Below, piece after piece: positions 7,596-29,387 of a DNA stretch of 64,000 bases. Source of the stretch: Microbulbifer celer (lineage in GTDB: Bacteria; Pseudomonadota; Gammaproteobacteria; Pseudomonadales; Cellvibrionaceae); assembly GCF_020991125.1 (NCBI RefSeq), contig NZ_CP087715.1, positions 1,577,501-1,641,500 of the forward strand, given 5' to 3'. Every line of letters begins with the position of its first letter. Position 1 is the stretch's first letter. The translations under genes were made by a program, and so were the position numbers. The notes below the pieces were generated by a model. That model did no database searches. It saw only the letters and a program-made list of their open reading frames with translations, and was not told where the DNA came from.

Positions 7596-10500
7596 TTACT
7601 GAGCGGGGAGCTCGGCCAAGTGCTGCAGTAGCGGGAAATAGAGGGCGCAGCGGATGGATCTTTCTCCGCGCTGGTAGAACAGGCGGCGGTAGTTTTCCAG
7701 TTGGCCGCGGTACTTTTCCAGCTGGTGCTCGATGAAGGTCTCCAGTGGTTCCTCTGCGGCGGGTTCTGCGGTTTTGTAGTCGATGATCCAGCGGGTGCCT
7801 TCAGCATCAATGAAGGTGCGATCGACAATATTGCGACGCAGCTCGCGGCCGCCGCTGTGGAGTTCCAGCTCTGCGGCGCTGTCCTGGTGGTTGGCGTCCA
7901 GTAGCCAGCGGCCGGTCTCGCAGTTGAGGGTGCGCAATACGGACTGTTCCACCTTCTCCAATGCCTTCTCCAGCGTGCCGCCGTTCAGCCCGGCCTGAGT
8001 CAGTCGCAATTGCCACAGGGGAGTGAGCTCCTGCATCAATTGATCTGGCGCGGTAGCCAGTCGTTCGGGAGATTCGGTGAGGGTTGCCAGTGTCTCGTGG
8101 GCGACGGTGCCGGCGTGGCGGTACCAGCGTTGATGTACCTGGCCAAGTTCCGGCAGGTTGGCTTCCTCGTCGTCCTTCCGGTGAAAGTCTCCCATGCGGT
8201 AGCGGGCGAGATATTCCTGGCGCGGGTGTGCCGGCGTTTGCCATTGTTGCGGCAGGTGCAGCAGGTAGCTGCGGTCCTGTACCTCCGCCTGTTGTGCGGG
8301 GGCCTCTGCTTCCAGCCAGTGGCACCAGGGGCTTTCACTATTTTCCAGCACGGTGGACCAGATGCTGGCCAGCAGGGAAGCGCTGCCGGGAGCTTTGAAA
8401 TCTTCGTTTTTCTTGTCCGAGGATTTCACACACGCCAGCAGGTGCAGGGAGTGGATTGCGCGGGTGCAGCCGACGTAGAGCAGGCGCGTGCCTTCCAGGC
8501 GTTCCCGTTCACTGTTGTCGTGTTTGACGTAGGCGTACAGCGGGTCTTTACCGCTGCGGGGGCTTTTGGGGGCGAGCAGAAAGCGGGTATCCGCGTCGCT
8601 GTTGAGCCAGGTACACCAGCGCAGTAGCTGATCGCTGCCACCGCCGCCGCCGGATTTGTCGAGGCCCGGGATCAGTACGTGATCGAACTCCAGGCCTTTG
8701 GATTTGTGAATGGTCATTACCTGTACCCGCGCTTCCTGGGTGGGGCGGGCGAAGAGTTTTTCCAGTGCCTGTTCGAACGCAGGCCAGTCACTGATACTGC
8801 CGCCCTGATCGTATTTTTCCAGCAGCTGGAAAAAGTCGGCGGCGTTACTCAATTCGCGTTTGTCCGCAACGGTGGCAGGGCCACCGAGGGCGAGCCACAG
8901 GCCTTCGACCCACACCCGTAAAGGTTTGCGTCCGCGTTCCTGCCAGCATTGCAGCAACTGTGGTGCACAGCGTTGCAGGCGCTGACGGCCGGCTTCACTG
9001 AGGGGTTCTACGGCATCGAGGTCACGCAGGGTATTGAGGATCGGTGCCAACTTGGGATCGCGGGGGCTTTGCTCTTCAATGTTGTGATTGGCCACGGCGT
9101 ACAGGTCGGGCAGTGACAGGCCACACCAGGGCGCGCGCAGGATGGCGAGCCAGCTGATGCGGTCGCTCGGGTCCTGTAAGGCGCGGGTCAGGCTCAACAG
9201 GTCCAATACCACCATTTTACTGGCCAGTGGCGCCAGGTCCTGGGCCTGGTAGGCGATACCGGCACGGGTCAGTGCGGGCAGGATTTGTTGCAGGTGTTTT
9301 TTGTTGCGCACCAGTACCGCGATGCTGTCTTCTGGCGCTTTGGCTTGCAGGCCCTGAATGATCTCCACCGCCTGTTCCGCTTCCTGCAGGCGTTCGCTGT
9401 CATCCACACAGCCGTAAAAACTGACCGGTTCGCCGTCCCAGCTGCGGGGCTTGAAGGCGACGGAATCCAGATAACGCACCGCGCCGCGGCTGATATTGTC
9501 CCGCGGCGGGAAGGCGCGCAGGAAAGTGTGATTGACCCAGTCCACTACTGCGGTGCTGGAGCGGAAGTTGACCTGCAGGTTGAGTGGCGTCAGGGCTAGT
9601 TCGCCGATGCCTTCGTTGCGCGCGTCGAGAAAGATCCCCACGTTGGCGTTGCGGAAGCCGTAACAGGACTGCATGCCGTCGCCGACGATAAACAGGCTGC
9701 GCCCGTCATCGGGTTCCCAGCCGGCGGTGAGTTTATGCAACAGTTCCAGCTGCAGCTGGGAGGTATCCTGAAATTCGTCCACCAGAATATGCTGAATCTG
9801 TACGTCCAGCTTGAGTGCGACGTCCGTGGGGGCGTCGCTGTCTCCGAGGGCAACCAGTGCGGCCTGGGAAATTTCGGTGAAATCGGTGCTGCCCAGTTGC
9901 TGGAATACCAGTTTCAGTTCCGCGACCAGTAGCGGCAGAACGCGCGCGAGGGATCTGAGAATCTGCCATTGGCTGTCACTCATGCCGGCGGGCAGGGTGC
10001 GCACTTCGGCAATGATCTGCAGTAGTTCTGTGTTGTCCCTGATGTCTTCCAGCAGTGCGGTCATGCGCTCTTTCTGCGCCTTTGCCCGCTCCGGATCAGG
10101 AGACTTCTTGTCTGCCGCTGGAAAGCCGATGGTTTTGGTGACGGACTTGCGAAAAGTGCCTGTGCCGGTGGCCAGCAGTTCCGCCAGTGCCAGCCACTGT
10201 GGTAGCCCTTGATCACTACAGGGGGGGAGGGCGCTGATGCCGGCGAGGTTGCTGACAATATGTTCCGGCTTTTCTTTCTGCAGGTTGTTGCCGGCGTAGT
10301 CCGCCAGTTGCAGCAGTTCTCCGGCGAAGGTGCCGAGGCTATTCTGGAATGCGGTCAGCTGCTGTTCGATCAGTTCTTCGATGACGAAGGTGAAGTAGTC
10401 TTCTGCCTCGGAGTTATGGACCGAGAGCAGCGGCTCCAGCCACTGTTCGCGTTTTTCCAGCAAGGTTTTCAGCAAGTCGCTGACTTCTGGCAGGTTGTTG

Positions 10501-11051
10501 TCCAGGTGCAGCAGCAGGCGGCCGAGGTCTTCGTCCAGTTGTTCCTGTTCAAGTTTTTTCAGCAGGTTGGCGATGGCCATTTCGTAGGCGATGGCGGGCT
10601 GATCCAGTGGTTCACCGGGGGCGCCGAGGCCGCTGTCGATGGGCAGTTGGCTGGCGATGTTGCGGCAGAGGCCGTCGATGGTCTGGATACGCAGGCGTTG
10701 CGGGCTTTGCAGCAGGTGCCACTGGTGTTGCTGGTCGTGGGCCAACAGGTTGCGGGCCAGTTGCCAGGTGATTCTGGCGTGGGGGGTTTCCGGTTCGGGG
10801 TTGTCGCGGGCATCCAGTAGTGCGTCGAGAAGGCGTTCGCGCATTTCGCCGGCGGCTTTGCGGGTGAAAGTGATGGCGAGAACTTCTTCTGGTTGCTGGC
10901 AGGCGCTGAGGAGTTTTAACAGGCGCTGGGTAAGCAGGCCGGTTTTGCCGGAGCCGGCGGGCGCGGAGACGGCAAAGCTCTGGGTAATGTCCAGGGCTTC
11001 TTTTCGTTGCTCGGCGTCTACTGGGGTGTTTGTGTTTGCCGCGTTTGTCAT
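7596..11051 (-). CDS. UvrD-type helicase/nuclease, AddA-like subunit
   Basis: 1151 residues. Superfamily 1 helicase motifs in order: Walker A SAPAGSGKTGLL (~30), LAITFTRKAAGEMR, VDEFQDTSQLQ (motif II), NFRSST, VMTIHKSKGLEFDHV and LLYVGCTRA (motif VI). The C terminus carries a RecB-like nuclease motif, WIIDYKTAEPA (~1095). The layout matches AddA/RecB-type subunits that unwind and resect double-strand breaks for RecA loading. It follows the AddB-like gene on the same strand across a 220-base spacer holding a large palindrome. It is not E. coli-type RecB, and no recC or recD is adjacent. Confidence 0.9.
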   Translation of the reverse strand: MTNAANTNTPVDAEQRKEALDITQSFAVSAPAGSGKTGLLTQRLLKLLSACQQPEEVLAITFTRKAAGEMRERLLDALLDARDNPEPETPHARITWQLARNLLAHDQQHQWHLLQSPQRLRIQTIDGLCRNIASQLPIDSGLGAPGEPLDQPAIAYEMAIANLLKKLEQEQLDEDLGRLLLHLDNNLPEVSDLLKTLLEKREQWLEPLLSVHNSEAEDYFTFVIEELIEQQLTAFQNSLGTFAGELLQLADYAGNNLQKEKPEHIVSNLAGISALPPCSDQGLPQWLALAELLATGTGTFRKSVTKTIGFPAADKKSPDPERAKAQKERMTALLEDIRDNTELLQIIAEVRTLPAGMSDSQWQILRSLARVLPLLVAELKLVFQQLGSTDFTEISQAALVALGDSDAPTDVALKLDVQIQHILVDEFQDTSQLQLELLHKLTAGWEPDDGRSLFIVGDGMQSCYGFRNANVGIFLDARNEGIGELALTPLNLQVNFRSSTAVVDWVNHTFLRAFPPRDNISRGAVRYLDSVAFKPRSWDGEPVSFYGCVDDSERLQEAEQAVEIIQGLQAKAPEDSIAVLVRNKKHLQQILPALTRAGIAYQAQDLAPLASKMVVLDLLSLTRALQDPSDRISWLAILRAPWCGLSLPDLYAVANHNIEEQSPRDPKLAPILNTLRDLDAVEPLSEAGRQRLQRCAPQLLQCWQERGRKPLRVWVEGLWLALGGPATVADKRELSNAADFFQLLEKYDQGGSISDWPAFEQALEKLFARPTQEARVQVMTIHKSKGLEFDHVLIPGLDKSGGGGGSDQLLRWCTWLNSDADTRFLLAPKSPRSGKDPLYAYVKHDNSERERLEGTRLLYVGCTRAIHSLHLLACVKSSDKKNEDFKAPGSASLLASIWSTVLENSESPWCHWLEAEAPAQQAEVQDRSYLLHLPQQWQTPAHPRQEYLARYRMGDFHRKDDEEANLPELGQVHQRWYRHAGTVAHETLATLTESPERLATAPDQLMQELTPLWQLRLTQAGLNGGTLEKALEKVEQSVLRTLNCETGRWLLDANHQDSAAELELHSGGRELRRNIVDRTFIDAEGTRWIIDYKTAEPAAEEPLETFIEHQLEKYRGQLENYRRLFYQRGERSIRCALYFPLLQHLAELPAQ

Positions 11052-11112
11052 TTCGTCAGGTCTTCAGTGTCGGGCCCCGGTACCACGGTGGTCGGAACTT
11101 GGTCCGGTGGCG

Positions 11113-11222
11113 GCAAAGCACCGGGTATAGGTTTTCAAGACCGCTATGGATACATCCCTGTACGCTGCGTCGGCGACGTCCCTGTCGCCGACGCTCTTGA
11201 AAACCTATACCCGGCACTTTGC
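11113..11222. repeat. Large nested palindromic element, copy A
   Basis: The outer arms 11121-11140 and 11195-11214 are a perfect 20-base inverted repeat, extended outward after two mismatches by GGCAAAG/CTTTGCC. Inside is a second perfect 11-base stem (11167-11177 with 11184-11194) closed by GTCCCT, and a short TACA-TCCC-TGTA hairpin at 11151-11162. It occupies most of the spacer between the AddB-like and AddA-like genes. Its arm (CCGGGTATAG...CAAGA) and TCCC-loop hairpins resemble the element at 17801-17927, which points to one repeat family. Confidence 0.85.
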
Positions 11223-11270
11223 CTTCGATTTTTACATTGCTACTGCGTAGCTACGGTTAGCCTTCAGTTC

Positions 11271-13982
11271 TTACTGTCTTTCCGGCCAGCGGTTTAACGG
11301 CCAGAGGGATTTCTGGTTTTCGTTGTCTGCCGGGCGATCAAAAATCAGCGGGGCCTGGCCGGTGCGGTACTCGTCGGCGAGGCCTTCGAGTGCCTGCTGC
11401 CAGTGTTGTTTCAACTGGTCCCAGTGCACGATCTCCGGTTCCTGTTGTTTTGAAGCGCCTTTCTGCGCGTCAGCGACGAGCTTGATGCCGTTGATGGGCT
11501 GGGCGAGTTCGCCGCAGCCCTGGTATTTGCAGTCCCCGTTTTTTACCCCACCGAAGGCGATGGCTTTGGCCTGCGGGTGGAAGAGGGCGTAGAGGGGAAG
11601 CTGGGGTTCGCGGACGCGCGCCTGTAGCCAGTCGCTGAGTGAGGTCTGGCCGGTTTTGTAGTCGATCACCAGTTGTTCGCCATCGACGAGGGTATCCAGT
11701 CGGTCGAGGCGCAATGTGAAGGTGAGGCCTTGTAGAGTGACGGTGAGTTCGGATTCCACCTGACTGACGGTGAAAGCCGGACGTGCCTGTTCCAGGGGGA
11801 GCCATTGGTCGAAGATGGTTTTGAGCCGGGTTTGTTCCAGGGCCCAGAAGGCTTCGGGGAGTTCCGGGTGTTTTTTCTTGAGGCGACCGATGGCGGTGTC
11901 GATGCTGCTACTGATTTGCAGGTTGCGCTGTTCGTCGCCCATCGCGGCGAGGTTTTGCGAGTTTTCGCAATTGAGCCAGAAGGCGGCGAGCATTTCGTGG
12001 ATCAGGTTACCGCGTTCCGCGGCACTGAGGCCGAGGCCCGGCTCGGAGAACTCTTCGGCCCCCAGGCGGTAGCGCAGTTGGGCGTTGAGCGGGCACAGGG
12101 CCTGGGCTTTGAGTACACCGGCGCCGCCGCGGACCTGGGCGCAGTCTGCGGGGCTGAGTGGGGGCAGTTCTCGGTCGTCGGTCTGTTCCAGAGTCGGGCC
12201 ATTTTCCAGTGCCTGGTAAAAATCGCTGATGGCGTCCTGGCCCAGCTGTTCGGCGGGTTGTGGAGCGCCGAACAGAGCGCTGAGGGATTGGCCGACGCCG
12301 TCTTCTTCGCAGGCGTAGCTGACGACGATTTCGCTGCTGGCGTTCATCAGGTCCTGGGTCAGTTCCTGGGCGAGCTTGAGTTCTCGCTCGGCACTGGCGC
12401 GGGGCATTTCCCAGTCTTTCTGCCACTGTACCGGCAGCATGGGATTGGGGGATGGGGGCGGTGGCCACTGCTGCTGGCCGAAGCCTACCAGGCGGATGTG
12501 ATCAAAGGCGAGGCCGCCGGCTTCCAGTACGCCGAGAATCTGCAGCGGGCCGTCGCGGGTCTCTGCCTGGAACGGGGTGCGGCTGGCGATCTGTCGCAGC
12601 AATTGCAATGCTTTGGAAAGCGGTAGGCTGCCGGTGAATTCATTGAGGCCGGCGAAGTTTTCCAGTGCCTGTTCCCACAGCATAAGCTGCTGGTATTCCT
12701 GACTGTTGGGGTTGCGCTTGCCGGGCCATTGCAGGCGCGCGAGCAGTTCGGAGAAGCGCTGCGCCCAGATTTCTGCCGGCGCGCGCTGCCAGCGCCGGGC
12801 CCACTCCCCGAGTTGGTTCAGCTGTGCGGGCAGGGGACTTTCCGGGGCGATCTCGCTGGCGAGCTTTTCCGTGCAGGTGCACAGGATATTGCCGGGGACT
12901 TCCCGTAACTCCTGTTTTTGCAGACGGCGAAAGAGGGCGCTGCGCAGGTGTTGTTCCTCGTTGCTGTCGTCGCCCCAGAATGGCGAGAACAGCAGATTGC
13001 GTAACTGGCTGTAATCGAATTTGTCGCGCAGGGTTTCCAGTAACTGCAGGGTGGCGGCACCTACCGGGGTCTTGGCGAGCGGGGTACCGGCTGAGAAGTT
13101 AAATGGCAGGGTATAGGCCGCTTGCGCCGGGGCCAGCCACTGGGGTTCCAGAACACGGGCAAATACCTGTTCCACCAGGGGGCGGCATTGGCCGAGGTTG
13201 TTCACCACAATACCGACACTGTTGTCCGGATTCTGCGCGAGCTTTTGCGCGGCCCAGCGCGCGGCCTGTTGCAGTTCTTCTTCCAGATTGTGGCAACGTG
13301 CAACCTGGATCTTCGCTTGGTCTTTTTCCGGAATAGGATAGCGCTGCAGCGATTCTGTAGCGCTGGCAAAGATGCGATCCGTGAGAGGGGAATTCTGCAC
13401 GAAGCCCGCGAGTGATATCTGCGGCAATTTCGCAAGTTGCCCTTCGTCAAACGCGCGCGCGATCAGCAGGTCGCGCTGGTCCGGGGTGATGGCGTTGCGC
13501 TGTTGCAACTGTTGCTGGAACAGCGGTAATACCTGGAACAACGGATAGTCGCCTGCCTGCAGACCGATCTTTTCCCAGTGTGGTGCCAGCGCTTCGTCGG
13601 CGGCTGTGAGGTCTTCAACTTTCAGCCACTGAATCAGTTGCGACAGCGCCGTGTCGCAATTGCCGGCGAGCAGCTGGGTGTTGATCAGCCCTTTGTCCAG
13701 CGTGTCTTCCACACACTGCTGCCACAGCAGTTGCCGCTGCTCGCGGTTCAGTACCCTGCACATGGCCGGTTGCCACTGTTTCTGCTGCAGTGTAAACCAG
13801 AGTGTATCCAGCCAGCCCTGCAGGGATTCCACGGCCGGCGGCGCCCAGTTTTTATTCGCCTGCTGGCTGGTGCCGAACACCTGCTGGCAGCGGTTGCGCA
13901 GGCGGTTGGTGGGTGTGAGCAGCAGACCGCCCTCGGGCAGCTGGTCGAGAATGTGCAGCAGGGGGAATGCGGGTTGCAGCAT
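11271..13982 (-). CDS. AddB-like PD-(D/E)XK nuclease, probable DNA repair protein
   Basis: 903 residues, the size of the 'probable DNA repair protein' family related to AddB (TIGR03623 as I recall it). The N-terminal half is an inactivated helicase-like region: TPTNRLRNRCQQVF stands where a Walker motif would be, and GVLEAGGLAFDHIRLVGFGQQQWPP is a helicase-like segment. The C-terminal nuclease has LRLDRLDTLVDGEQLVIDYKTG, with the catalytic D...DYK pattern, followed by QLPLYALFHP. Cysteines at ~630 (ALCPLNAQ) and near 830 (GDCKYQGCGEL) could form part of an iron-sulfur site as in AddB, but this is unproven. It is upstream of, and probably partners, the AddA-like gene. Confidence 0.85.
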   Translation of the reverse strand: MLQPAFPLLHILDQLPEGGLLLTPTNRLRNRCQQVFGTSQQANKNWAPPAVESLQGWLDTLWFTLQQKQWQPAMCRVLNREQRQLLWQQCVEDTLDKGLINTQLLAGNCDTALSQLIQWLKVEDLTAADEALAPHWEKIGLQAGDYPLFQVLPLFQQQLQQRNAITPDQRDLLIARAFDEGQLAKLPQISLAGFVQNSPLTDRIFASATESLQRYPIPEKDQAKIQVARCHNLEEELQQAARWAAQKLAQNPDNSVGIVVNNLGQCRPLVEQVFARVLEPQWLAPAQAAYTLPFNFSAGTPLAKTPVGAATLQLLETLRDKFDYSQLRNLLFSPFWGDDSNEEQHLRSALFRRLQKQELREVPGNILCTCTEKLASEIAPESPLPAQLNQLGEWARRWQRAPAEIWAQRFSELLARLQWPGKRNPNSQEYQQLMLWEQALENFAGLNEFTGSLPLSKALQLLRQIASRTPFQAETRDGPLQILGVLEAGGLAFDHIRLVGFGQQQWPPPPSPNPMLPVQWQKDWEMPRASAERELKLAQELTQDLMNASSEIVVSYACEEDGVGQSLSALFGAPQPAEQLGQDAISDFYQALENGPTLEQTDDRELPPLSPADCAQVRGGAGVLKAQALCPLNAQLRYRLGAEEFSEPGLGLSAAERGNLIHEMLAAFWLNCENSQNLAAMGDEQRNLQISSSIDTAIGRLKKKHPELPEAFWALEQTRLKTIFDQWLPLEQARPAFTVSQVESELTVTLQGLTFTLRLDRLDTLVDGEQLVIDYKTGQTSLSDWLQARVREPQLPLYALFHPQAKAIAFGGVKNGDCKYQGCGELAQPINGIKLVADAQKGASKQQEPEIVHWDQLKQHWQQALEGLADEYRTGQAPLIFDRPADNENQKSLWPLNRWPERQ

Positions 13983-19652: not shown

Positions 19653-20000
19653 TTACAGACAGTTAGTGGGCTTGGGCAAACCGGCGATCTTGCTGCCAAT
19701 CTTGGCGGGGCTGGGCGGGAACAGCTGCATCAGAAAGATACTGCGGCCTTTATCCGCGCCCAGATGCTGGCCGACATATTTAACCAGCGGGCGCATGGCA
19801 GGAGAGAGTTCGAACTCGCGGTAAAACGCCTGTAACAGACGGATGACATCCCAGTGATCCGGGGTCAGTTCAATGCCTTCCTGTGCGGCAATTGCTTCCG
19901 CGATTTCGGGACTCCAGTCGTCCAGATTGCGCAGGAAGCCTTCTTTGTCCAGGGGGATTTTACGGCCGTCTATTTCCAGGGCTTTCTCAGGGTTGGTCAT
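19653..20000 (-). CDS. tusE: TusE/DsrC-like sulfur relay protein
   Basis: 115 residues from the ATG at 20000; E. coli TusE is 109. It receives persulfide from TusBCD and passes it to MnmA for 2-thiouridine in tRNA. Conserved DsrC features are LDKEGFLRNLDDWSPEIAEAIA, LTPDHWDVIRLLQAFYREFELSP, and the active cysteine next to the C terminus (PKPTNCL). It is the last gene of the tusDCBE operon, starting 9 bases after the tusB stop. Confidence 0.95.
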   Translation of the reverse strand: MTNPEKALEIDGRKIPLDKEGFLRNLDDWSPEIAEAIAAQEGIELTPDHWDVIRLLQAFYREFELSPAMRPLVKYVGQHLGADKGRSIFLMQLFPPSPAKIGSKIAGLPKPTNCL

Positions 20001-20008
20001 CGTCTGTG

Positions 20009-20290
20009 TCACCGGAACCAGCTGACAATCGGGTTGTGTTGGGTACAGAGGTCTACCCACTGGGCGTCGTCAATGGCGCTGATGGATGGATCAATGGTAA
20101 TCCCGCGCGCCTCTGCATCGGCACTCAGACAGTAGGCCGCATTTTGTGGCAGTCCGGTCAGCGTTGCGCCACGTGCCGCGTAGACGCCATCTTCGATCAA
20201 CAGCAGTACATCGCCTTGGTGGAAGGCTTGCAGGCAGTCGTTGAGTGCGTTCCCGGCGTGGGGCGATTGATTGACGATATGCAGTGTCAT
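20009..20290 (-). CDS. tusB: Sulfur relay protein TusB
   Basis: 93 residues, DsrH-like: LHIVNQSP at the N terminus, GDVLLLIEDGVYAA and NPIVSWF at the end. It forms the TusBCD heterohexamer. It sits one base downstream of tusC and 9 bases before tusE. Confidence 0.92.
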   Translation of the reverse strand: MTLHIVNQSPHAGNALNDCLQAFHQGDVLLLIEDGVYAARGATLTGLPQNAAYCLSADAEARGITIDPSISAIDDAQWVDLCTQHNPIVSWFR

Positions 20291-20291
20291 C

Positions 20292-20651
20292 TTAAAAGCT
20301 CAATACCTGATTGAACCCGGCAATAAACTGGCCGGTGTCTTGCACCAATTTCAATTCGGCGCCGGGGATGTCCAGCTCTGCTGGATCAATGCGGCGGGAC
20401 ACCAGGCTGCGTTCGCACAGATACAGGGTCTCTACGCCGAACATGGGCAGCGCCTGGAGGTTTCGGCGCAGGTTCTTTTCGTTGATCCTGTCCGGTTTTT
20501 GCTCCAGCAACTGGAATACCCCGTCGTTGATAAACAGCACTTCCGGCACCTGATCCATCGCGGCGCAGGCGAGTACCGCTTCCAGGCCCTCGCGGGCAAG
20601 CGCGTTGCCGTAGGGGGCGTGGCGGCAGAGTGCGAGAATGGATTTGGCCAC
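20292..20651 (-). CDS. tusC: Sulfur relay protein TusC
   Basis: 119 residues, DsrF-like: ILALCRHAPYGNALAREGLEAVLACAA at the N terminus, EVLFINDGVFQLL, and MFGVETLYLCERSL. Part of the TusBCD complex that carries sulfur for tRNA 2-thiolation. It is 3 bases downstream of tusD and 1 base upstream of tusB. Confidence 0.92.
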   Translation of the reverse strand: MAKSILALCRHAPYGNALAREGLEAVLACAAMDQVPEVLFINDGVFQLLEQKPDRINEKNLRRNLQALPMFGVETLYLCERSLVSRRIDPAELDIPGAELKLVQDTGQFIAGFNQVLSF

Positions 20652-20654
20652 GCT

Positions 20655-21047
20655 TTAACCTCCGAACGTCACGATGCGGTCACTCAGCGCAGCGGCTTCC
20701 GCCAGTTGGCCGAGGCCCGCGAGTTCAAACCCTTCGGCGAGGTTGGCGGCGGGCTTTTCCAGCCGGGACGCTTCACTCTCGCTCAATACACCACGGCGCT
20801 GCGCGGCGGCAATGCACACGGTCAGATCCAGCTGGTGCTGCTGTTGCAGATCCTGCCACTGGCCGAGTAGATCCTGCTCATCCTGGGGGGGAGCGGTGAG
20901 GGCGCTGCCGTTGTGGATGCCGTCTGCATAGAAGAACACCCGGTAGATACCGTGGCCGGAAGTGAGCACCGCGCGGGCAAAGCGCAGCGCGGTGGCTGCA
21001 CCTTGTGACCCGTGGGGGGCGCCGTAGACGACGAGGGTGAACTGCAT
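20655..21047 (-). CDS. tusD: Sulfur relay protein TusD
   Basis: 130 residues, DsrE-like. The active cysteine that takes sulfur from TusA is in LDLTVCIAAAQRRG (~78), the position expected from E. coli TusD Cys78. The segment VFFYADGIHNGSAL is also typical. It is the first gene of tusDCBE and follows the yccA-like gene, with a terminator in between. Confidence 0.94.
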   Translation of the reverse strand: MQFTLVVYGAPHGSQGAATALRFARAVLTSGHGIYRVFFYADGIHNGSALTAPPQDEQDLLGQWQDLQQQHQLDLTVCIAAAQRRGVLSESEASRLEKPAANLAEGFELAGLGQLAEAAALSDRIVTFGG

Positions 21048-22533: not shown

Positions 22534-25119
22534 CTATCGATCGGCGTCCGGTGCCGGGACTTTCAGGTCGACAATCAACGGCAGATGGTCCGACGCGAGG
22601 CGGGTCAGCTCGCTGCGGGGCACGTGAACGCCATGTACCGCCAGTTCCGGGTCGATGAATACATAGTCAATCCGGGCCTTGGGCAGGCGGCTGAAAAAAG
22701 TCCCAAGTGGCTTGTGGCCGGGAAGTTTCAGCTGCGCGTCGTCGAGCACGCTGGTCAATCGCCGAATTTCTGTAGAGCCGGGCAGTGCATTGAAGTCGCC
22801 TACCAGTATTCTCGGGCGGTGACACTCGGGATTGTCTATCCAGTCTGCGCCCAGCAATGCTTCCACCTGTCGCATCCGCTCCCCTTTAGAGAGCCCCAGG
22901 TGCGTGTTGAATACCTGCACCCTGGTGCCGTGAAAGTCCACTTCCACCCACAGGGCGCCGCGCGGCTCTGCGCGACCGTGTTGGCGCGAGCGGGGAGAGG
23001 GGCCGGGTAAAATGTCTTTCCTGATCAGGCGCAGTGGCCAGGGTGATAGGATGGCATCTCCATAGCGTTCGTCCTCCAGATGCATCGCCGGCTGGAAGTG
23101 GCAGTCCATGGATAACAACCGCGCGATCTGCTGGGCCTGATCCACGCCGCCGGTGCGCTGACGGCGAACATCCACTTCTTGCAACGCCACCACATCCGGC
23201 GAGTATCGGGCAATCACACGGGCAATGCGCTCCGGAGACAGCTTGCCGTCCACGCCTTCGCAGATGTGCACGTTGTACGTCATCACCCGTAGTTTGCGGC
23301 GGGGGCAATGGTTGCCGTCCTTTTTTGATGACCGTGTGTGCGCGCTGGAGGTGGGGGCGGTCTCGACGCGCGCGCTCGGTTCTTCTGATGCAGCCTGAGC
23401 GGTAGAGGGCGGTGGGGAGCGCTTGTCCAGCACCGAAATTGCCGGCGGTGATTTGAGTTTCTGCGCCGGTTGCGCTTTCAGGAATGCGAGCGCCGCATCG
23501 CGGATATCCTTTGGCCGCCAGTGTCCGTTGGTGTTGCCGGATAAATGATCAGGGAGGTGAATATCCCCAGGCATCAGGGCGAAGGCGTGGGTTTCATTGG
23601 GCGCGGCGCCCCCGTGGCTGCCGCTTTCGATAGCAAAGGTGATACTTTTACTGCCGGCGCACCATCCGCTGATCACGAAATCTCCCGAGTCTGGATGACG
23701 CACGAGGTTGACCAGGTCTTCCGCTGCCTCGTCGGTAAACGGGTGATCGGAGCCAAGTACTTTGTGGCCATCTTTCGGGAGCTCGAAGGGGCCGTCACGC
23801 CACCAGCCGAGCACCCGGGGTTTGGTGCCTTCCGCCGGGTTCTTTTCCTGATACAGAATCATCGGCACTTTGGTCTGCTCGACGATCAGTTGGGCGATCC
23901 TGGCCGGGTCAGTGCCATTGAGATGAATGTTGTACAGCAGAGCCAACGGTCCCATGGCGGACAGCGCCATCGGGCTTTCGCCTTCCTCCTGCTGCTCGTG
24001 GGTACGGATAGGAAACAACTTCTGTACCCATTGGCCGCCGAACAAACGTACACGCTGTAACTGCAGACCCTCGCGGCCGGCGGCGCGATAACCACTGGGA
24101 CTTTTGGGCAGGCTATTGAGAGCATCGCAAATCGCGTCTGCCAGCGGTTTCCCATGCAGCGTTTCGTAGGGAATGCTGTCTTCCTGGCCGTGATCGGAAT
24201 AGATCCAGACGTCGTAATGTCGCCGCGAAGAACGGTGTGCGGCGCGCCAGATCCTGGCGATGGCATCGTCGATACCTTTCAGGGTCCAGTGGGCAAATGC
24301 GGAGCTGGGGCCGCGGCGGTGGGACTGCTCGTCGTACCCCAGAAAGTTGACATAGATGACCGGTAGCCCGCGGGCAATATCGATTTTTACGCCGACGGTA
24401 GACAGCTCCCGCAACAAAATGGTGATGGCGATGCGCGTGGGAATGAACATCAGCTCCCGCATAAAGTCCTGACCGCGGTGGATACCGCGCACGAAATCCA
24501 CCAGTGACAGAATCAACTCCAGCACTACGAGGCCACCGGTGCGAATCAGGCTCCAGATATTCGCCAGCAGCAGTACCAGCAGCGCCAACGGACCGGCCTG
24601 TTTAAGGCTGTTTCCCCAGCCGTAGGTGGCAGCGCAGTAGTGTGCATCATCAAATTCGGCGCCGCCGCTGAACAGACTGACGTAACAGCTGCCGTGTTTC
24701 AGCAGGGGCTCGTGGCCCGTATCTTTGAGCTTCTGCTCCACCTGAGTAGCTGCTTTGGCTTCGTACATCCGCAGCATTTCCTGGGAGTCGGTGGACATAA
24801 AGCCGAAGGCCGGTACCGCCGCTTTCACACCGTAGAAAATCTCCGCCTGTACCGCTGGCGTGGTTGCCGGAACGCCGGAATACATATGGTCCAGGTGGTA
24901 ATGTTCGCGCTCGATGAGTTTTTTCAGGAAGGGCATTTTGCCGTCGGCCAGGGCGCGGTCCAATTGGGGCCGCGCGAGGCCGTCAACCTGGATCAGCACC
25001 AGCGCTGGTGCATCTGGGGCGCGCTCGTTGATCTGCAACTTGAGCATACGCGCCAGCCATTCACTGCGGCTGATGCGCCGTCGCCAGCGACGCAGGGTGC
25101 TCTCAATGCGAGTCAACAT
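22534..25119 (-). CDS. Fusion: phosphodiesterase (alkaline phosphatase superfamily) + EEP domain
   Basis: 861 residues. Residues ~35-545 are an alkaline-phosphatase-like phosphodiesterase: VLIQVDGLARPQLDRAL, PATTPAVQAEIFYG, VNFLGYDEQSHRRGP, WIYSDHGQED and ESGSHGGAAPNETHAFALMP carry the Asp/His/Thr pattern of its metal site. It contains a hydrophobic hairpin at ~176-208. A Pro/Ser-rich linker (~560-615) leads to an endonuclease/exonuclease/phosphatase domain: VMTYNVHICEG, VVALQEVDV, NTHLGLSKGERMRQ, VGDFNALPGS, IDYVFI and SDHLPLIVDL. EEP enzymes include nucleases, phosphoinositide phosphatases and sphingomyelinase-type phospholipases C, so lipid phosphodiesters are possible substrates. It is the last gene of the cluster, 40 bases after the GT4 gene. 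Confidence 0.82.
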   Translation of the reverse strand: MLTRIESTLRRWRRRISRSEWLARMLKLQINERAPDAPALVLIQVDGLARPQLDRALADGKMPFLKKLIEREHYHLDHMYSGVPATTPAVQAEIFYGVKAAVPAFGFMSTDSQEMLRMYEAKAATQVEQKLKDTGHEPLLKHGSCYVSLFSGGAEFDDAHYCAATYGWGNSLKQAGPLALLVLLLANIWSLIRTGGLVVLELILSLVDFVRGIHRGQDFMRELMFIPTRIAITILLRELSTVGVKIDIARGLPVIYVNFLGYDEQSHRRGPSSAFAHWTLKGIDDAIARIWRAAHRSSRRHYDVWIYSDHGQEDSIPYETLHGKPLADAICDALNSLPKSPSGYRAAGREGLQLQRVRLFGGQWVQKLFPIRTHEQQEEGESPMALSAMGPLALLYNIHLNGTDPARIAQLIVEQTKVPMILYQEKNPAEGTKPRVLGWWRDGPFELPKDGHKVLGSDHPFTDEAAEDLVNLVRHPDSGDFVISGWCAGSKSITFAIESGSHGGAAPNETHAFALMPGDIHLPDHLSGNTNGHWRPKDIRDAALAFLKAQPAQKLKSPPAISVLDKRSPPPSTAQAASEEPSARVETAPTSSAHTRSSKKDGNHCPRRKLRVMTYNVHICEGVDGKLSPERIARVIARYSPDVVALQEVDVRRQRTGGVDQAQQIARLLSMDCHFQPAMHLEDERYGDAILSPWPLRLIRKDILPGPSPRSRQHGRAEPRGALWVEVDFHGTRVQVFNTHLGLSKGERMRQVEALLGADWIDNPECHRPRILVGDFNALPGSTEIRRLTSVLDDAQLKLPGHKPLGTFFSRLPKARIDYVFIDPELAVHGVHVPRSELTRLASDHLPLIVDLKVPAPDADR

Positions 25120-25159
25120 ATCGGGTTGCTCTTACTCCTGAGGGTTTCCAAAACAGAAT

Positions 25160-26443
25160 TTAGTGGTGATGGTTTTTGTGTGGGTGATCAAATGCCGCAC
25201 TGGCAGCACTGGTGACACCCTCAAGAATTTCCCACTGGGCGCCAATCATATTGCGCAGGCGCATCCACTGCGCATACAGTGAGGCATCTACCGGACAGTG
25301 CTGGTGAACCAGAGACTGGTAGTGATCCAACGCAGCTGCAGCGCAGCTTTCCATGGAGTAGGCGTTGGCTGTTTTCAATGCTTCGCGCATTAGCGCGGAT
25401 CGGCTATTGTCATCGAGGTCCACTGCCCACTGCAGGGCCTCGATCATGGCGCGTTCTGTGTGCGGGAGCACCAGGCGGCCATTGATGCGATCTTCCACCA
25501 CCTCGCGACAGCCACTGGCATCCAGCGCTACGACGGGTACGCCTGCGGCCATGGCTTCTGTAAGCACCATGCCCTGCGTCTCACTGGTAGAGGCAAAGGC
25601 GAACAGATCCATGGCGGAGTAGGCATTGCGCAGCGACTCGCCTTGCAAGGTGCCGGTAAAATGCGTGCGTCTTTCCAGCTCGTGCTCGACAAACAGGGAT
25701 TCCATCGCGCGTCGCGAAGGGCCATCGCCGACAATCAGGAAATGGCATTGCGGGTTGCGCTGCAGAATTTCCAGCACGCTGTGGGAAAGGAAGCCGAGAT
25801 TCTTTTCCTCTGCGAGCCGACCGAGATGCCCGATTACAAACGCGGAATCCGGAATGCCGTATTGCATTCGCACGGCGGTGCCGTCGCCGTCCTGGAAGTT
25901 CTCCAGCTGCACACCGGTAGGCACCACGGCAATAGGAGATTTCACCCCGCGCTCTCGCAGGAGTTCGGCGACACTTTCGCTGGGCGCAAATACCGTGCTG
26001 GCCAGGTTGCCGTAGCGGGTCGCCAGCTCGATGACAAACCGTTTAAGCGCTTCGGAATCCGCCGGCACATAGTGAGTGTAGCGCTCGTACAGCGTGTGAT
26101 GAGTGAAGATCAGCGGCAGCTCGCGGCTGCGTGCTATGCGCAATGCTGACATGCCGAGCAAGAATGGATGATGCGCATGGACAATATCGGGTTCAAAGAA
26201 ATCCAGTTGCTCCGTGAGCTCGCCAGATAATGGCAGGGCGACGGAGAAGTCGCTGCCGTTGAAATTCTGTATCGCGGGAATGCGCACCACGTCGCGCTCA
26301 TCTGGAATTTTCTGCGAAAACTCAGGCGCGACAATAAGCACTTTGTGTCCACGTTTCCGGTACTCGCGGGTGAATGCTTCCACCGAGCGCGCTACGCCGC
26401 CCACGTGGGGCAGGTAGGTATTCGTCAGCATAACGATGTTCAC
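25160..26443 (-). CDS. GT4 glycosyltransferase, diacylglycerol glucosyltransferase-like
   Basis: 427 residues. N-terminal Rossmann half: MLTNTYLPHVGGVARSVEAF, VHAHHPFLLG, and FTHHTLYERYTHYVP, which resembles the HTMYEDY-type stretch of 1,2-diacylglycerol 3-glucosyltransferases. C-terminal half: GHLGRLAEEKNLGFL, FLIVGDGPSRRAME, and the retaining-GT4 E-x7-E in SETQGMVLTEAMAAGVPVVA. The GTG start overlaps the upstream glycosidase stop by four bases (GTGA), so the two are translationally coupled. The C terminus ends in a His-rich tail. Lipid glycosylation is the best guess; other acceptors cannot be excluded. Confidence 0.83.
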   Translation of the reverse strand: MNIVMLTNTYLPHVGGVARSVEAFTREYRKRGHKVLIVAPEFSQKIPDERDVVRIPAIQNFNGSDFSVALPLSGELTEQLDFFEPDIVHAHHPFLLGMSALRIARSRELPLIFTHHTLYERYTHYVPADSEALKRFVIELATRYGNLASTVFAPSESVAELLRERGVKSPIAVVPTGVQLENFQDGDGTAVRMQYGIPDSAFVIGHLGRLAEEKNLGFLSHSVLEILQRNPQCHFLIVGDGPSRRAMESLFVEHELERRTHFTGTLQGESLRNAYSAMDLFAFASTSETQGMVLTEAMAAGVPVVALDASGCREVVEDRINGRLVLPHTERAMIEALQWAVDLDDNSRSALMREALKTANAYSMESCAAAALDHYQSLVHQHCPVDASLYAQWMRLRNMIGAQWEILEGVTSAASAAFDHPHKNHHH

Positions 26444-28683
26444 AGACTCTGTAGCTCCATCATTTCCGCATCTTGCGATGCTTCAACAGTCTTGAAGCCA
26501 AAAGCGCGGATTTCAATGGTGGGCGCCGCGCCATGCCAGCGCGCGGACCAGCTGATACGGGGTTTCTTCCCGGGCGTGATCTCGATAGAAATGGGGCCAA
26601 AATGCGTGGGCGCCGGGCCGAATTGGATGGGTTCTTGCGCATTGCTATCTCGCAGCCATTCTTCCGGCAGGCCAGAGGCCAGTATCAATACATCGCCTTC
26701 CTCACGCACGAAGCAATTGCGCTGCATGGTGACCCACTCTGCCGCAGCCCAGGCATGCTGGCCGTCGCCCATACAACCACCGAATGAATGCGGGTGAATG
26801 GCTTCAGGCCACTGGCCAGTGGGGGAGGCGAGCTTGGCGACGTTGCGCATCAGGTCAATGCAGCGGCGGTCGCCCGCGCGCAGTAGGACCTGGGCAACAT
26901 GAATCGTAAGATAGGCGTTGATTCCGGAGTGGATCATATCCTGGAAAAAACCACCGGAGACAAAGCATTTTTCCATCAGGAATTCCACCAGATCCAACAG
27001 CCTTGGATCGTTTTCGGGGAAAAGTTTCAGCGGGTAGCCCGCGGCAATGGAGCCAATTGCCCCGGCGTCCAGGCGGCGGTTGGGGGAGGCGGGCATGGCC
27101 GGGCGGCCAAGCCTCTCCTGGCACTGGCGCAGACTTTCGTCAACCGTGAGCATAAAGTCGTCGGCCTGACTCTGGAACGTCTCGGCATCTTGTGGATGTG
27201 ACTCCCGTTGACAGATGGCGACGGCGGAATGCTGGCCCGCGATACCCCAAAAGTCATCCCAGTAGTAACAATCGTTGGGCCCGAGGTGTTCGGCACTGAA
27301 GCCCGCTGGTAGCAGCCCCCCGGTGCGACTGCCGTCTTTGGGGCGGCGCTTGTTGTGGATCCACTGGGTACCGCGTAGCACCGGGTCCAGAAACTCGGCT
27401 TTCAGCTTCTGGCCGGTCGTGCGACAGAACTGGTCGAGTATCCAGAGCGCTTCGCCATTGGAATCCCATTCTCCATCCTGTGAATGGAAATAGCCGTTGC
27501 GCTTCTGCCGTGAAGGAAAGCGCTCCAGCGCACGCTCGGCGCGCTCGAGCAGGCCCGCATGCAACAGAGACTGGATCATGAATGCGGCATCCCGAAACCA
27601 GAAGCGCTTGTAGGTATAAGGGCCGGGATACACATCGTGTGGAGAGTGCAGTATCAGCGTGCGCACGGCAGCATCGTAGAGAAACTGCATTTCGCTGTCC
27701 GGTACCGTCATTTTGCAGTGACTGTCCAGATTGTCTTGCCAGCTGGACCGCGCATTGCGGCTGTTCAGCTTGCTGTGCTGGGGGATTGTCACCAGCGTAT
27801 CCACCGTTTCCCCTGGCGCCATACGGAACAGTGCCGCCGCAGTGGCCATACCGACTTCGCATTCGGCGTGGGTTTCGTTGCTCTCATCGCGCAGGTAGAG
27901 GGAAATGTCGCCGCGTCGATAATCGGAAGCGTGGTGCCGGTCAATCGGTCGGTCGAACAGGATCTTGTCAGCGCCATCCACGAGCCATTGATTGCGGTTA
28001 TTGTTCAGGGTCACTTTGTGTACCAGCGCCACCCCTTCCGGATTGCAGGGGCGTAGCGACACAACAAGCCAACCACCGGCCGCGTGGCTTCCGCGCAGAT
28101 GCAGCAGGCAGTTGTTGTTCTGTTCTGTCAGCTCGGCCCAGACCCGGGTAGTCAATTTGGCGCCCGCGTTTTCGCTGGTAGTGCGGATGGCCACCCCGTC
28201 TTCGAATTCCAGTGACTGGTCCAGGTCGTCTATCTGTGAAGGGTAAAGGGCACTGCCGTCATCGCCGATGATCCAGCAGTCAATCGACCAGCTGTCGTAG
28301 TGCGGGGTCAACAGGCCACGGGGGTCTACGACGGGCATTTCCTCACTACCCGGCACTCCTACTGCGGTCCAATTGCGATGGCTCAGGTTACAGTGGGTAA
28401 TGGAAAATGCCCGAGGAATAAATGAGATATCTGAAGGGTCGAACTGGCGCTCAATCCAATAGGGCCAAACCCAATCGAGATTGTGCTGGATGACTTTGCT
28501 GTTCATCAGCGCGCGGGCGTGGAAAATCACTCCGGCGCGCAGAAGCTCTATGGGTTCACTGACTTCGGAAGGCTCTGCAAACCGTTGCAGCCGCGCCATT
28601 ACCGTCAGCGGGTCGAGAAATCCGTGGGCTGTCGCAAATCTGCGTATGAAGAACCGCCAGGGGAGCCATTTCATCCACGGCAT
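26440..28683 (-). CDS. Amylo-alpha-1,6-glucosidase-like glycoside hydrolase
   Basis: 747 residues from the ATG at 28683, which overlaps the VTT gene's stop (TGATG). An N-terminal beta-sandwich (~90-330) is followed by an (alpha/alpha)6 barrel (~340-720), with YKRFWFRDAAFMIQSLL and GEWDSNGEALWILDQF carrying the acidic residues typical of glycogen-debranching-type enzymes, plus YWDDFWGIAG and CFVSGGFFQDMIHSGINAYLT. The target may be a short glucosyl chain rather than glycogen, since no glycogen genes are near. It has no evident signal peptide. Confidence 0.75.
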   Translation of the reverse strand: MPWMKWLPWRFFIRRFATAHGFLDPLTVMARLQRFAEPSEVSEPIELLRAGVIFHARALMNSKVIQHNLDWVWPYWIERQFDPSDISFIPRAFSITHCNLSHRNWTAVGVPGSEEMPVVDPRGLLTPHYDSWSIDCWIIGDDGSALYPSQIDDLDQSLEFEDGVAIRTTSENAGAKLTTRVWAELTEQNNNCLLHLRGSHAAGGWLVVSLRPCNPEGVALVHKVTLNNNRNQWLVDGADKILFDRPIDRHHASDYRRGDISLYLRDESNETHAECEVGMATAAALFRMAPGETVDTLVTIPQHSKLNSRNARSSWQDNLDSHCKMTVPDSEMQFLYDAAVRTLILHSPHDVYPGPYTYKRFWFRDAAFMIQSLLHAGLLERAERALERFPSRQKRNGYFHSQDGEWDSNGEALWILDQFCRTTGQKLKAEFLDPVLRGTQWIHNKRRPKDGSRTGGLLPAGFSAEHLGPNDCYYWDDFWGIAGQHSAVAICQRESHPQDAETFQSQADDFMLTVDESLRQCQERLGRPAMPASPNRRLDAGAIGSIAAGYPLKLFPENDPRLLDLVEFLMEKCFVSGGFFQDMIHSGINAYLTIHVAQVLLRAGDRRCIDLMRNVAKLASPTGQWPEAIHPHSFGGCMGDGQHAWAAAEWVTMQRNCFVREEGDVLILASGLPEEWLRDSNAQEPIQFGPAPTHFGPISIEITPGKKPRISWSARWHGAAPTIEIRAFGFKTVEASQDAEMMELQSL

Positions 28684-29387
28684 CAGAGGTCTCCTTCGTC
28701 GATTTTCTGTTTCAGTGCACGCCGCGCCATCCGGGTGAGACCAATAATGGCGATGATCGCCAGCAGGAAGCCCAGTCCATACAGCGTCCACTCAACCGGT
28801 GTCCGGGCGTTGCGCGCGGTACCGATACTGGTGATATCCGCGGCGATGGAACCGATGTAGACGTTATTGACGGTGATGGGAATAACCCCAAACAGGTTCC
28901 CGATAACAAAATCGCGAAATCGCAGTGGGGTCAGCCCGAAGAAATAGTTCGATAGCTTGAAGGGAAACAGGGGCACCATCCGTGTCAGCATGACCATTCG
29001 CCACCCCTCATCGCGCAGAATCTCCCCGAGATTTGGGGGGCGGACCTTGGAAAGTACCCAGTTGGAGACGCGTTGACCGAACAGATAGCGGGCGATGAGA
29101 AATGCGATGGCTGCGCCCAACACTGTACCCAGGACCACATAGAGGGTGCCTTTCGCGACGCCGAACACAAACCCGGCACCCATGGTAAAGACCACGCCGG
29201 GCAGCAGGAATACGATGGCGGCAGCGATGATCAGCATAAACCAGACACCGGCCTGCCAGCCGAGTGTATCCAGCCACTGCAGGAGACGCAGGATTTCATC
29301 ATCAAGGTTGAAATAGTGGAGGATGCCCAGCGCCGCGCCCACGGCAGCGGTGCAGATGACAAGCAACCAAATTGGTGAATACTTCAC
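28683..29387 (-). CDS. TVP38/TMEM64 (VTT/DedA-like) membrane protein
   Basis: 234 residues with about six hydrophobic segments. The VTT core is FLLPGVVFTMGAGFVFGVAKG, then GAAIAFLIARYLFGQRV, RMVPLFPFKLSNYFFGLTPLRF and GTVLGAAIAF. VTT proteins include lipid scramblases and DedA-type undecaprenyl-phosphate flippases. It is the first gene of a four-gene minus-strand unit, overlapping the glycosidase by one base, which fits a role in moving a lipid that the other members modify (inference). Confidence 0.88.
   Translation of the reverse strand: MKYSPIWLLVICTAAVGAALGILHYFNLDDEILRLLQWLDTLGWQAGVWFMLIIAAAIVFLLPGVVFTMGAGFVFGVAKGTLYVVLGTVLGAAIAFLIARYLFGQRVSNWVLSKVRPPNLGEILRDEGWRMVMLTRMVPLFPFKLSNYFFGLTPLRFRDFVIGNLFGVIPITVNNVYIGSIAADITSIGTARNARTPVEWTLYGLGFLLAIIAIIGLTRMARRALKQKIDEGDL

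Follow-up and report, generated by a model that had tools for sequence, protein, structure and literature searches.

A run of four genes on the minus strand of Microbulbifer celer, at 22534-29387 of a 64,000-nucleotide window (the whole stretch of DNA analysed, positions 1,577,501 to 1,641,500 of contig NZ_CP087715.1, assembly GCF_020991125.1), may encode a single pathway at the membrane surface for making and editing a glycosylated lipid, a reading to which we give a probability of about 0.45. According to the list of open reading frames (ORFs), the genes are transcribed in the order VTT, GH, GT4 and PDE-EEP, that is, a VTT-domain membrane protein, a glycosidase-type protein (GH), a GT4 glycosyltransferase and a fusion of a phosphodiesterase (PDE) with an EEP domain. 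Judged from sequence comparison, they form a conserved, translationally coupled unit, and the cluster is widespread in distantly related bacteria. No description of it was found in the literature, as far as titles and abstract openings show.

In the pathway that we infer, the GT4 protein would work on the inner side of the inner membrane and there attach a sugar, most probably alpha-glucose, to a lipid head group, that of diacylglycerol or phosphatidylglycerol, and the glycosidase-type protein could trim or remove that sugar, either on the lipid or on the released head group. The PDE-EEP protein, held to the membrane by a hydrophobic stretch and a basic N-terminus, would cleave phosphodiester linkages, either in this lipid or in a phospholipid that competes with it, and the VTT protein would move the product between leaflets; the direction could be synthesis or turnover. 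The features are as follows.

28683..29387, minus strand: VTT-domain membrane protein, putative lipid flippase or scramblase (GTG start, 234 aa; ORF, PF09335, hydrophobic segments)
26440..28683, minus strand: GH15/GH94-like (alpha/alpha)6 glycosidase-type protein by predicted fold (747 aa; ORF, AlphaFold, Foldseek, profile match to 9ju0)
26704..27696, minus strand: helical barrel of the glycosidase-type protein, about residues 330-660 (model secondary structure; R364/D365, E405/D407, D476/D477, D539, E627)
25160..26443, minus strand: GT4 glycosyltransferase, assigned by domains (GTG start, 427 aa; Pfam, NCBIfam match order, EX7E at E288/E296, R209, K214)
26069..26098, minus strand: HT.YE.Y.HY stretch of the GT4 protein, residues 116-125 (59/60 named GT4s, 0/17 GpgS-type proteins)
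22534..25119, minus strand: PDE-EEP fusion (ATG start, 861 aa; PF01663 and PF03372 in a single ORF)
24478..24600, minus strand: hydrophobic stretch within the PDE domain, residues 174-214 (hydropathy; long helices in the model)
22555..23295, minus strand: EEP domain, about residues 609-855 (Pfam stretch 613-845; Foldseek)

A conserved, translationally coupled gene unit

The layout described in an earlier note on this DNA, four same-strand genes joined by a TGATG overlap (VTT/GH), a GTGA overlap (GH/GT4) and a gap of 40 bases from the GT4 stop to the PDE start, was confirmed in the sequence. That note had named loss of the gene order in relatives as one refuting outcome; the order is in fact kept in 47/80 named loci, 20/20 genus regions and 8/15 class regions. 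The named loci, which are the set quoted here unless stated otherwise, are the best 80 of at least 575 genome-collection stretches encoding a GH relative; they overlap in genomes with 35 unnamed loci, and their gene order was determined by tblastn. Besides the 47 full loci (VTT-GH-GT4-PDE/EEP, order and strand kept), 19 contained VTT-GH, 4 GH-GT4, 5 VTT-GH-GT4 and 5 GH-GT4-PDE. Full loci made up 25/25 in Microbulbifer (24 so named plus L110, a metagenome-assembled genome (MAG) whose contig coordinates are those of G007 in this genus) and 22/36 in organisms other than Microbulbifer and Marinobacter; in L126 and L146, which belong to these 22, the contig ends within the outermost gene. GH adjoins GT4 in all 61 named loci outside Marinobacter, and all 19 listed Marinobacter loci are of the VTT-GH type, in one of which (L144) the contig stops directly after GH. 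By title, full loci outside the Gammaproteobacteria included those of Desulfobacteraceae, Desulfuromonadaceae, Thiobacillus and Hydrogenophilales, together with one in a MAG labelled Halobacteria that may be mis-binned, and partial loci included Rhodospirillales, Nitrospirota and Nitrospinota MAGs.

The 20 genus regions, all intact, come from 20 of the 36 other genus genomes found. The class regions, from other families, represent the 15 close full-length GH matches among 30 match rows; beyond the eight intact ones, two kept VTT-GH-GT4 and five GH-GT4. The arrangement exceeds chance, because the order recurs in this way at both levels. Searches of whole genomes scored few candidates per genome, so that the following counts may be low. 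The GH gene was found in 37/37 genus genomes (own included) and in 0/21 genomes that each represent another family of the order. In the phylum sample it was matched at E <= 1e-100 in 5/398 genomes (own included), two of them in one family (f19) of the same order; it was not shown for G054, a genus-mate of these two. A genome from another genus of the same family (G601) lacked GH, GT4 and PDE-EEP at the thresholds used, VTT not having been searched there. A close full-length GH occurred in 16/369 genomes of the class sample (own included), and 12 further genomes gave matches of 25-32% identity, mostly in proteins of about 1000 residues, with F5/8 discoidin domains in 5/5 tested.

Translational coupling was assessed at the junctions where both ORFs were placed within 2 kb (70 VTT-GH, 60 GH-GT4 and 50 GT4-PDE). 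The ORFs overlap at 56/70, 54/60 and 15/50 of these, respectively, and GT4 and PDE lie no more than 80 bases apart in 50/50. Protein distances run parallel over 20 loci outside Microbulbifer (r 0.79-0.89), part of which shared descent alone could explain. Within the class sample, full PDE-EEP was present in 11 genomes and occurred together with the close GH in 9, against about 0.5 expected if independent; the full fusion was missing in 7/16 GH genomes. Of the two PDE-EEP genomes without a close GH, one (G214) has an overlapping cluster-type GT4 and the other (G324) has part of one at a contig end. That the four neighbours share no pathway is therefore very improbable: the parts do separate, with VTT-GH alone in Marinobacter and GT4-PDE without the other two in G214, but the order is retained across phyla with overlapping starts, and GH and PDE-EEP co-occur.

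Predicted activities of the four proteins

The PDE, EEP and GT4 domains retain the residues expected for activity, as read from alignments. The window GT4 protein matched PF13439 and PF00534, with Glyco_transf_4 at 1.1e-36, and its EX7E motif (E288/E296) and donor-site residues R209 and K214 were identical in 33/33 relatives, which together assign it to the GT4 glycosyltransferases. The earlier note had likened it to diacylglycerol glucosyltransferases, and this likeness held in part. Its first NCBIfam match is the alpha-monoglucosyldiacylglycerol synthase NF049988 (2.7e-42), which it matches over near full length, yet at 145.5 bits it is far under the cut-off of 400; we did not file it under that family because of this gap. 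The second match is the synthase of glucosaminyl-phosphatidylglycerol (GlcN-PG), GpgS NF053787, at 131.3 bits against a cut-off of 480. All 33 relatives match both lipid families at E <= 1e-10, and many further GT4 families were matched too. The HT.YE.Y.HY stretch is shared by 59/60 GT4s of the named loci and by 92/95 when the overlapping unnamed set is included, and it was found in 0/17 GpgS-type proteins. In the other 3/95 (L072, L094 and L117, the last from M. variabilis, 10241-11512) the stretch ends in N. In the GT4 tree, the GpgS-type proteins (12 over the cut-off, 5 under) form a clade separate from the cluster GT4s; two own paralogues and L216 have long branches, and only this separation of clades was used. 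Orthology with GpgS was ruled out on the score and on the separate clade. In a search of the own genome, the GT4 of the cluster reached 725 bits and the next-best protein 122 bits.

The glycosidase-type protein has no match in NCBIfam, nor in Pfam with E values allowed up to 10. Its ATG at 28683 gives 747 aa, and the frame is open from a GTG at 28791, which would give 783 aa. The AlphaFold model (mean pLDDT 80.2, pTM 0.84) consists of a beta-sandwich followed by a helical barrel, and the first 80 or so residues, basic and aromatic at the N-terminus, are poorly modelled yet highly conserved. The top Foldseek match is the glucodextranase 1ug9 (9.1e-16, root-mean-square deviation (rmsd) 16.1), followed by GH94 phosphorylases and a glucoamylase, and we label the protein GH15/GH94-like because of these matches. 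Identity among the 50 matches listed is 8-14%, and GH15, GH94 and GH65 structures, including a 2-O-alpha-glucosylglycerol phosphorylase, are among them. A profile of 35 GH sequences gave a weak match to dextran dextrinase 9ju0 (E 0.0056), the alignment spanning three conserved GH stretches, including W475-D476-D477 opposite WED, the acid stretch. By predicted fold the protein resembles the GH15 glucodextranase and the GH94 phosphorylases, and three stretches align with dextran dextrinase 9ju0; the low identity, the rmsd of the top match and the weak profile E value set it apart. R364, D365, E405, D407, D476, D477, D539 and E627 are identical in 35/35 GH sequences; from the GH15 mechanism we propose D476 as the acid and E627 as the base, which would suit an inverting hydrolase.

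GH15 proper was rejected, as the window protein has no Pfam match and 3/18 relatives reach Pfam GH15, the best at E 0.089. The label of debranching enzyme (amylo-alpha-1,6-glucosidase, PF06202), used in the earlier note, was likewise abandoned: GDE_C is unmatched in the window protein and in the families listed for 18 relatives, and weak GDE_C matches appear only in 4/5 distant exported cousins. These distant cousins (L047, L049, L050, L054 and L055) are about 1000 residues long and carry F5/8 discoidin domains as well as weak matches to GDE_C or rhamnosidase, and some start with an apparent signal peptide. Signal peptides were judged by eye, and none was visible in the window GH. The plasmid search returned 3 records, all below 25% identity and under the discoidin-domain proteins. 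In L084 (3804-4116; G013, contig C1), what is left of a second VTT C-terminus and a second GH N-terminus (residues 2-51) stands some 3.2 kb upstream of the complete cluster.

Both domains of the PDE-EEP protein are matched in a single polypeptide, Phosphodiest at 2.1e-11 (PF01663, 44.5 bits against a cut-off of 23, spanning just 162-224 of 342 profile positions) and Exo_endo_phos at 7.2e-24 (PF03372, 85.2 bits against 24.5). Seven metal or nucleophile residues of the PDE and seven residues of the EEP, which we take to be catalytic, are identical in 29/29 sequences, and these together with the domain scores place the protein among both the type I phosphodiesterases and the EEP enzymes. All 50 Foldseek matches listed for the fusion model are EEP-type, namely TDP2-like and bacterial EEP structures. 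The PDE is identified from Pfam and residues because its domain is missing from these 50. None of them is a phospholipase C or sphingomyelinase by title, the enzymes with which the earlier note had suggested comparing the EEP domain. The hydrophobic segment that the earlier note had seen in the PDE lies at residues 174-214, where the 19-residue hydropathy exceeds 1.6 and the model has long helices. Along with the net charge of +7 over the first 35 residues, it is consistent with a protein lying on the inner face.

The VTT protein belongs to the VTT/DedA superfamily as judged by its domain (PF09335, 1.5e-24, 87.2 bits against a cut-off of 33.9) and has hydrophobic segments; a role as lipid flippase or scramblase is possible. 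In a Thiohalophilus locus (L064, 6248-6826) an additional 192-aa membrane ORF, DedA-like by eye, lies directly upstream of VTT.

A proposed glycosylated-lipid pathway and its alternatives

The layout of a transferase, tailoring enzymes and a flippase-type membrane protein resembles, by analogy, gpgSDF of Pseudomonas aeruginosa, which is described for GlcN-PG synthesis: a GT4 glycosylates phosphatidylglycerol, a second enzyme tailors the sugar and the third protein is a predicted flippase (PMC12713373). The likeness lies in bringing together these three kinds of protein, in gpgSDF as a predicted operon that acts on a phospholipid. The two systems differ in that GpgS belongs to a separate GT4 clade, in that tailoring is by a deacetylase there and by a glycosidase and PDE-EEP here, and in that the gpgSDF flippase is of the YbhN/AglD2 type (COG0392) rather than VTT. 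The hexSDF genes of Clostridium difficile, as cited in the same paper, follow a like logic of synthase, deacetylase and flippase for a glycolipid; they are likened here by description, and the passage concerned names no glycosidase or PDE-EEP (PMC12713373).

A second case comes from Marinobacter, where in 10/10 genomes the nearest GT4 sits elsewhere than the VTT-GH pair, in a frame of 741-876 codons. Among the GT4s of the searched genomes that are not of the cluster type, it comes closest (272-293 bits, about 34% identical), and the HT.YE.Y.HY stretch is absent from 10/10 of these long-frame proteins. Three were scanned for domains, and a calcineurin-like domain was over the cut-off in one, just under in one and absent in one. 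In the one locus examined in full (G429; L194, 5049-8338), a calcineurin-like phosphoesterase is fused to the GT4 and the next gene encodes an LPG_synthase_TM protein, which looks like a separate lipid-glycosylation pair. The phosphoesterase and the membrane protein are in common with our cluster, whereas this GT4 stands away from VTT-GH and is without the stretch. Here too, a GT4 of this sort would be joined to a phosphoesterase and to a flippase-type family, which counts in favour of a lipid pathway.

The host lipids fit to a degree. For 6/6 Microbulbifer strains, PMC9637087 records two glycolipids together with unidentified phosphatidyl-glycolipids, one or two per strain, and the cluster is present in M. 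rhizosphaerae (L104) and in another M. aggregans strain (L098). No PF06925 synthase was found in the own genome. The profile of M. rhizosphaerae in PMC11426391 differs from that in PMC9637087, and text and table of the former conflict on its own strain; thin-layer spots, moreover, cannot identify genes.

Several observations weigh against a glycosylated lipid. It would have to be explained why a glycosidase should sit in the same compartment as its own transferase. The window GT4 is well under the cut-offs of both lipid families, and a profile search places it closest, among solved structures, to chains 3c4q and 3c48, presumably MshA, an enzyme whose acceptor is soluble. The module is not fixed, as PDE-EEP is absent beside 7/15 class-level GHs and VTT is present in 10/15. 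In a table compiled in PMC11426391, only 3/8 Microbulbifer species have a glycolipid, and M. variabilis, a carrier of the cluster (L117), has none listed. API ZYM alpha-glucosidase was negative in 6/6 Microbulbifer strains (PMC9637087), which argues weakly against a general alpha-glucosidase.

On the one hand, the cluster could serve a surface glycan by building or clearing a saccharide linked to a polyprenyl carrier, GT4 adding a sugar, the glycosidase trimming it, PDE-EEP handling the carrier phosphate and VTT returning the carrier. PMC12893004 reports that proteins of the DedA family act as flippases of undecaprenyl phosphate, and several glycan GT4 families match the GT4 too, at lower NCBIfam scores. 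We consider this unlikely, as no recurrent polymerase, Wzx or ligase stands beside the cluster and there are few neighbour families outside Microbulbifer, where, however, clustering missed many genes. On the other hand, the GT4 could make a soluble glucoside (an osmolyte or a short glucan) that the GH15-like enzyme degrades, with the phosphoesterases acting on a glucoside phosphate. Such a route would suit the fold match to 2-O-alpha-glucosylglycerol phosphorylase and the presumed MshA-type relatives of the GT4, but the VTT partner, the membrane stretch of the PDE and the highly conserved basic, aromatic GH N-terminus tell against it, as do the top two NCBIfam matches of the GT4, which are lipid enzymes; we rate it as quite unlikely. 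The glycosylated-lipid module suggested by the earlier note is plausible and has gained strength from the conservation of the unit.

Upstream of the VTT start, after a gap of 189 bases, lies an MgtC-DUF4010 gene on the same strand, and downstream a tyrosine-phosphatase-type gene is oriented towards the cluster. The earlier note had also proposed a swap of phospholipid for glycolipid under phosphate limitation. Pho-box-like sites numbered 3 in the window against 4.25 expected by chance, and phosphate regulation was dropped as the leading idea because none of them lies upstream of the cluster. The promoter scan found 1 site against 2.7 expected, and terminator-like sites numbered 16 against 6.6 expected. 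Further along, three consecutive small ORFs (20009-21047, minus strand), which we take to resemble the TusBCD/DsrEFH sulfur relay, are accompanied by a DsrC/TusE-like ORF at 19653. The host genome is 4.35 Mb in a single contig.

Possible implications for membrane lipids

The glycosidase family is nameless in the Pfam and NCBIfam libraries searched, despite at least 575 genome-collection stretches that encode a relative. A broader proposal, which we hold to be doubtful, is that the cluster represents a sugar cycle on membrane lipids that is widespread in Pseudomonadota, Desulfobacterota and other groups. In it, an (alpha/alpha)6 glycosidase family that would be new and has no Pfam entry would act on lipid-linked sugar within the cell, together with its own GT4, a double phosphoesterase and a VTT lipid mover; the cycle might be the source of the unidentified phosphatidyl-glycolipids that appear in descriptions of these bacteria. 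If the lipid pathway is right, the enzymes that work on lipid-linked sugar within the cell would gain a further family, and genes would be assigned for the unidentified glycolipids and phosphatidyl-glycolipids recorded in species descriptions of Microbulbifer, and perhaps for those of the cluster-bearing methanotrophs, sulfur oxidisers and sulfate reducers.

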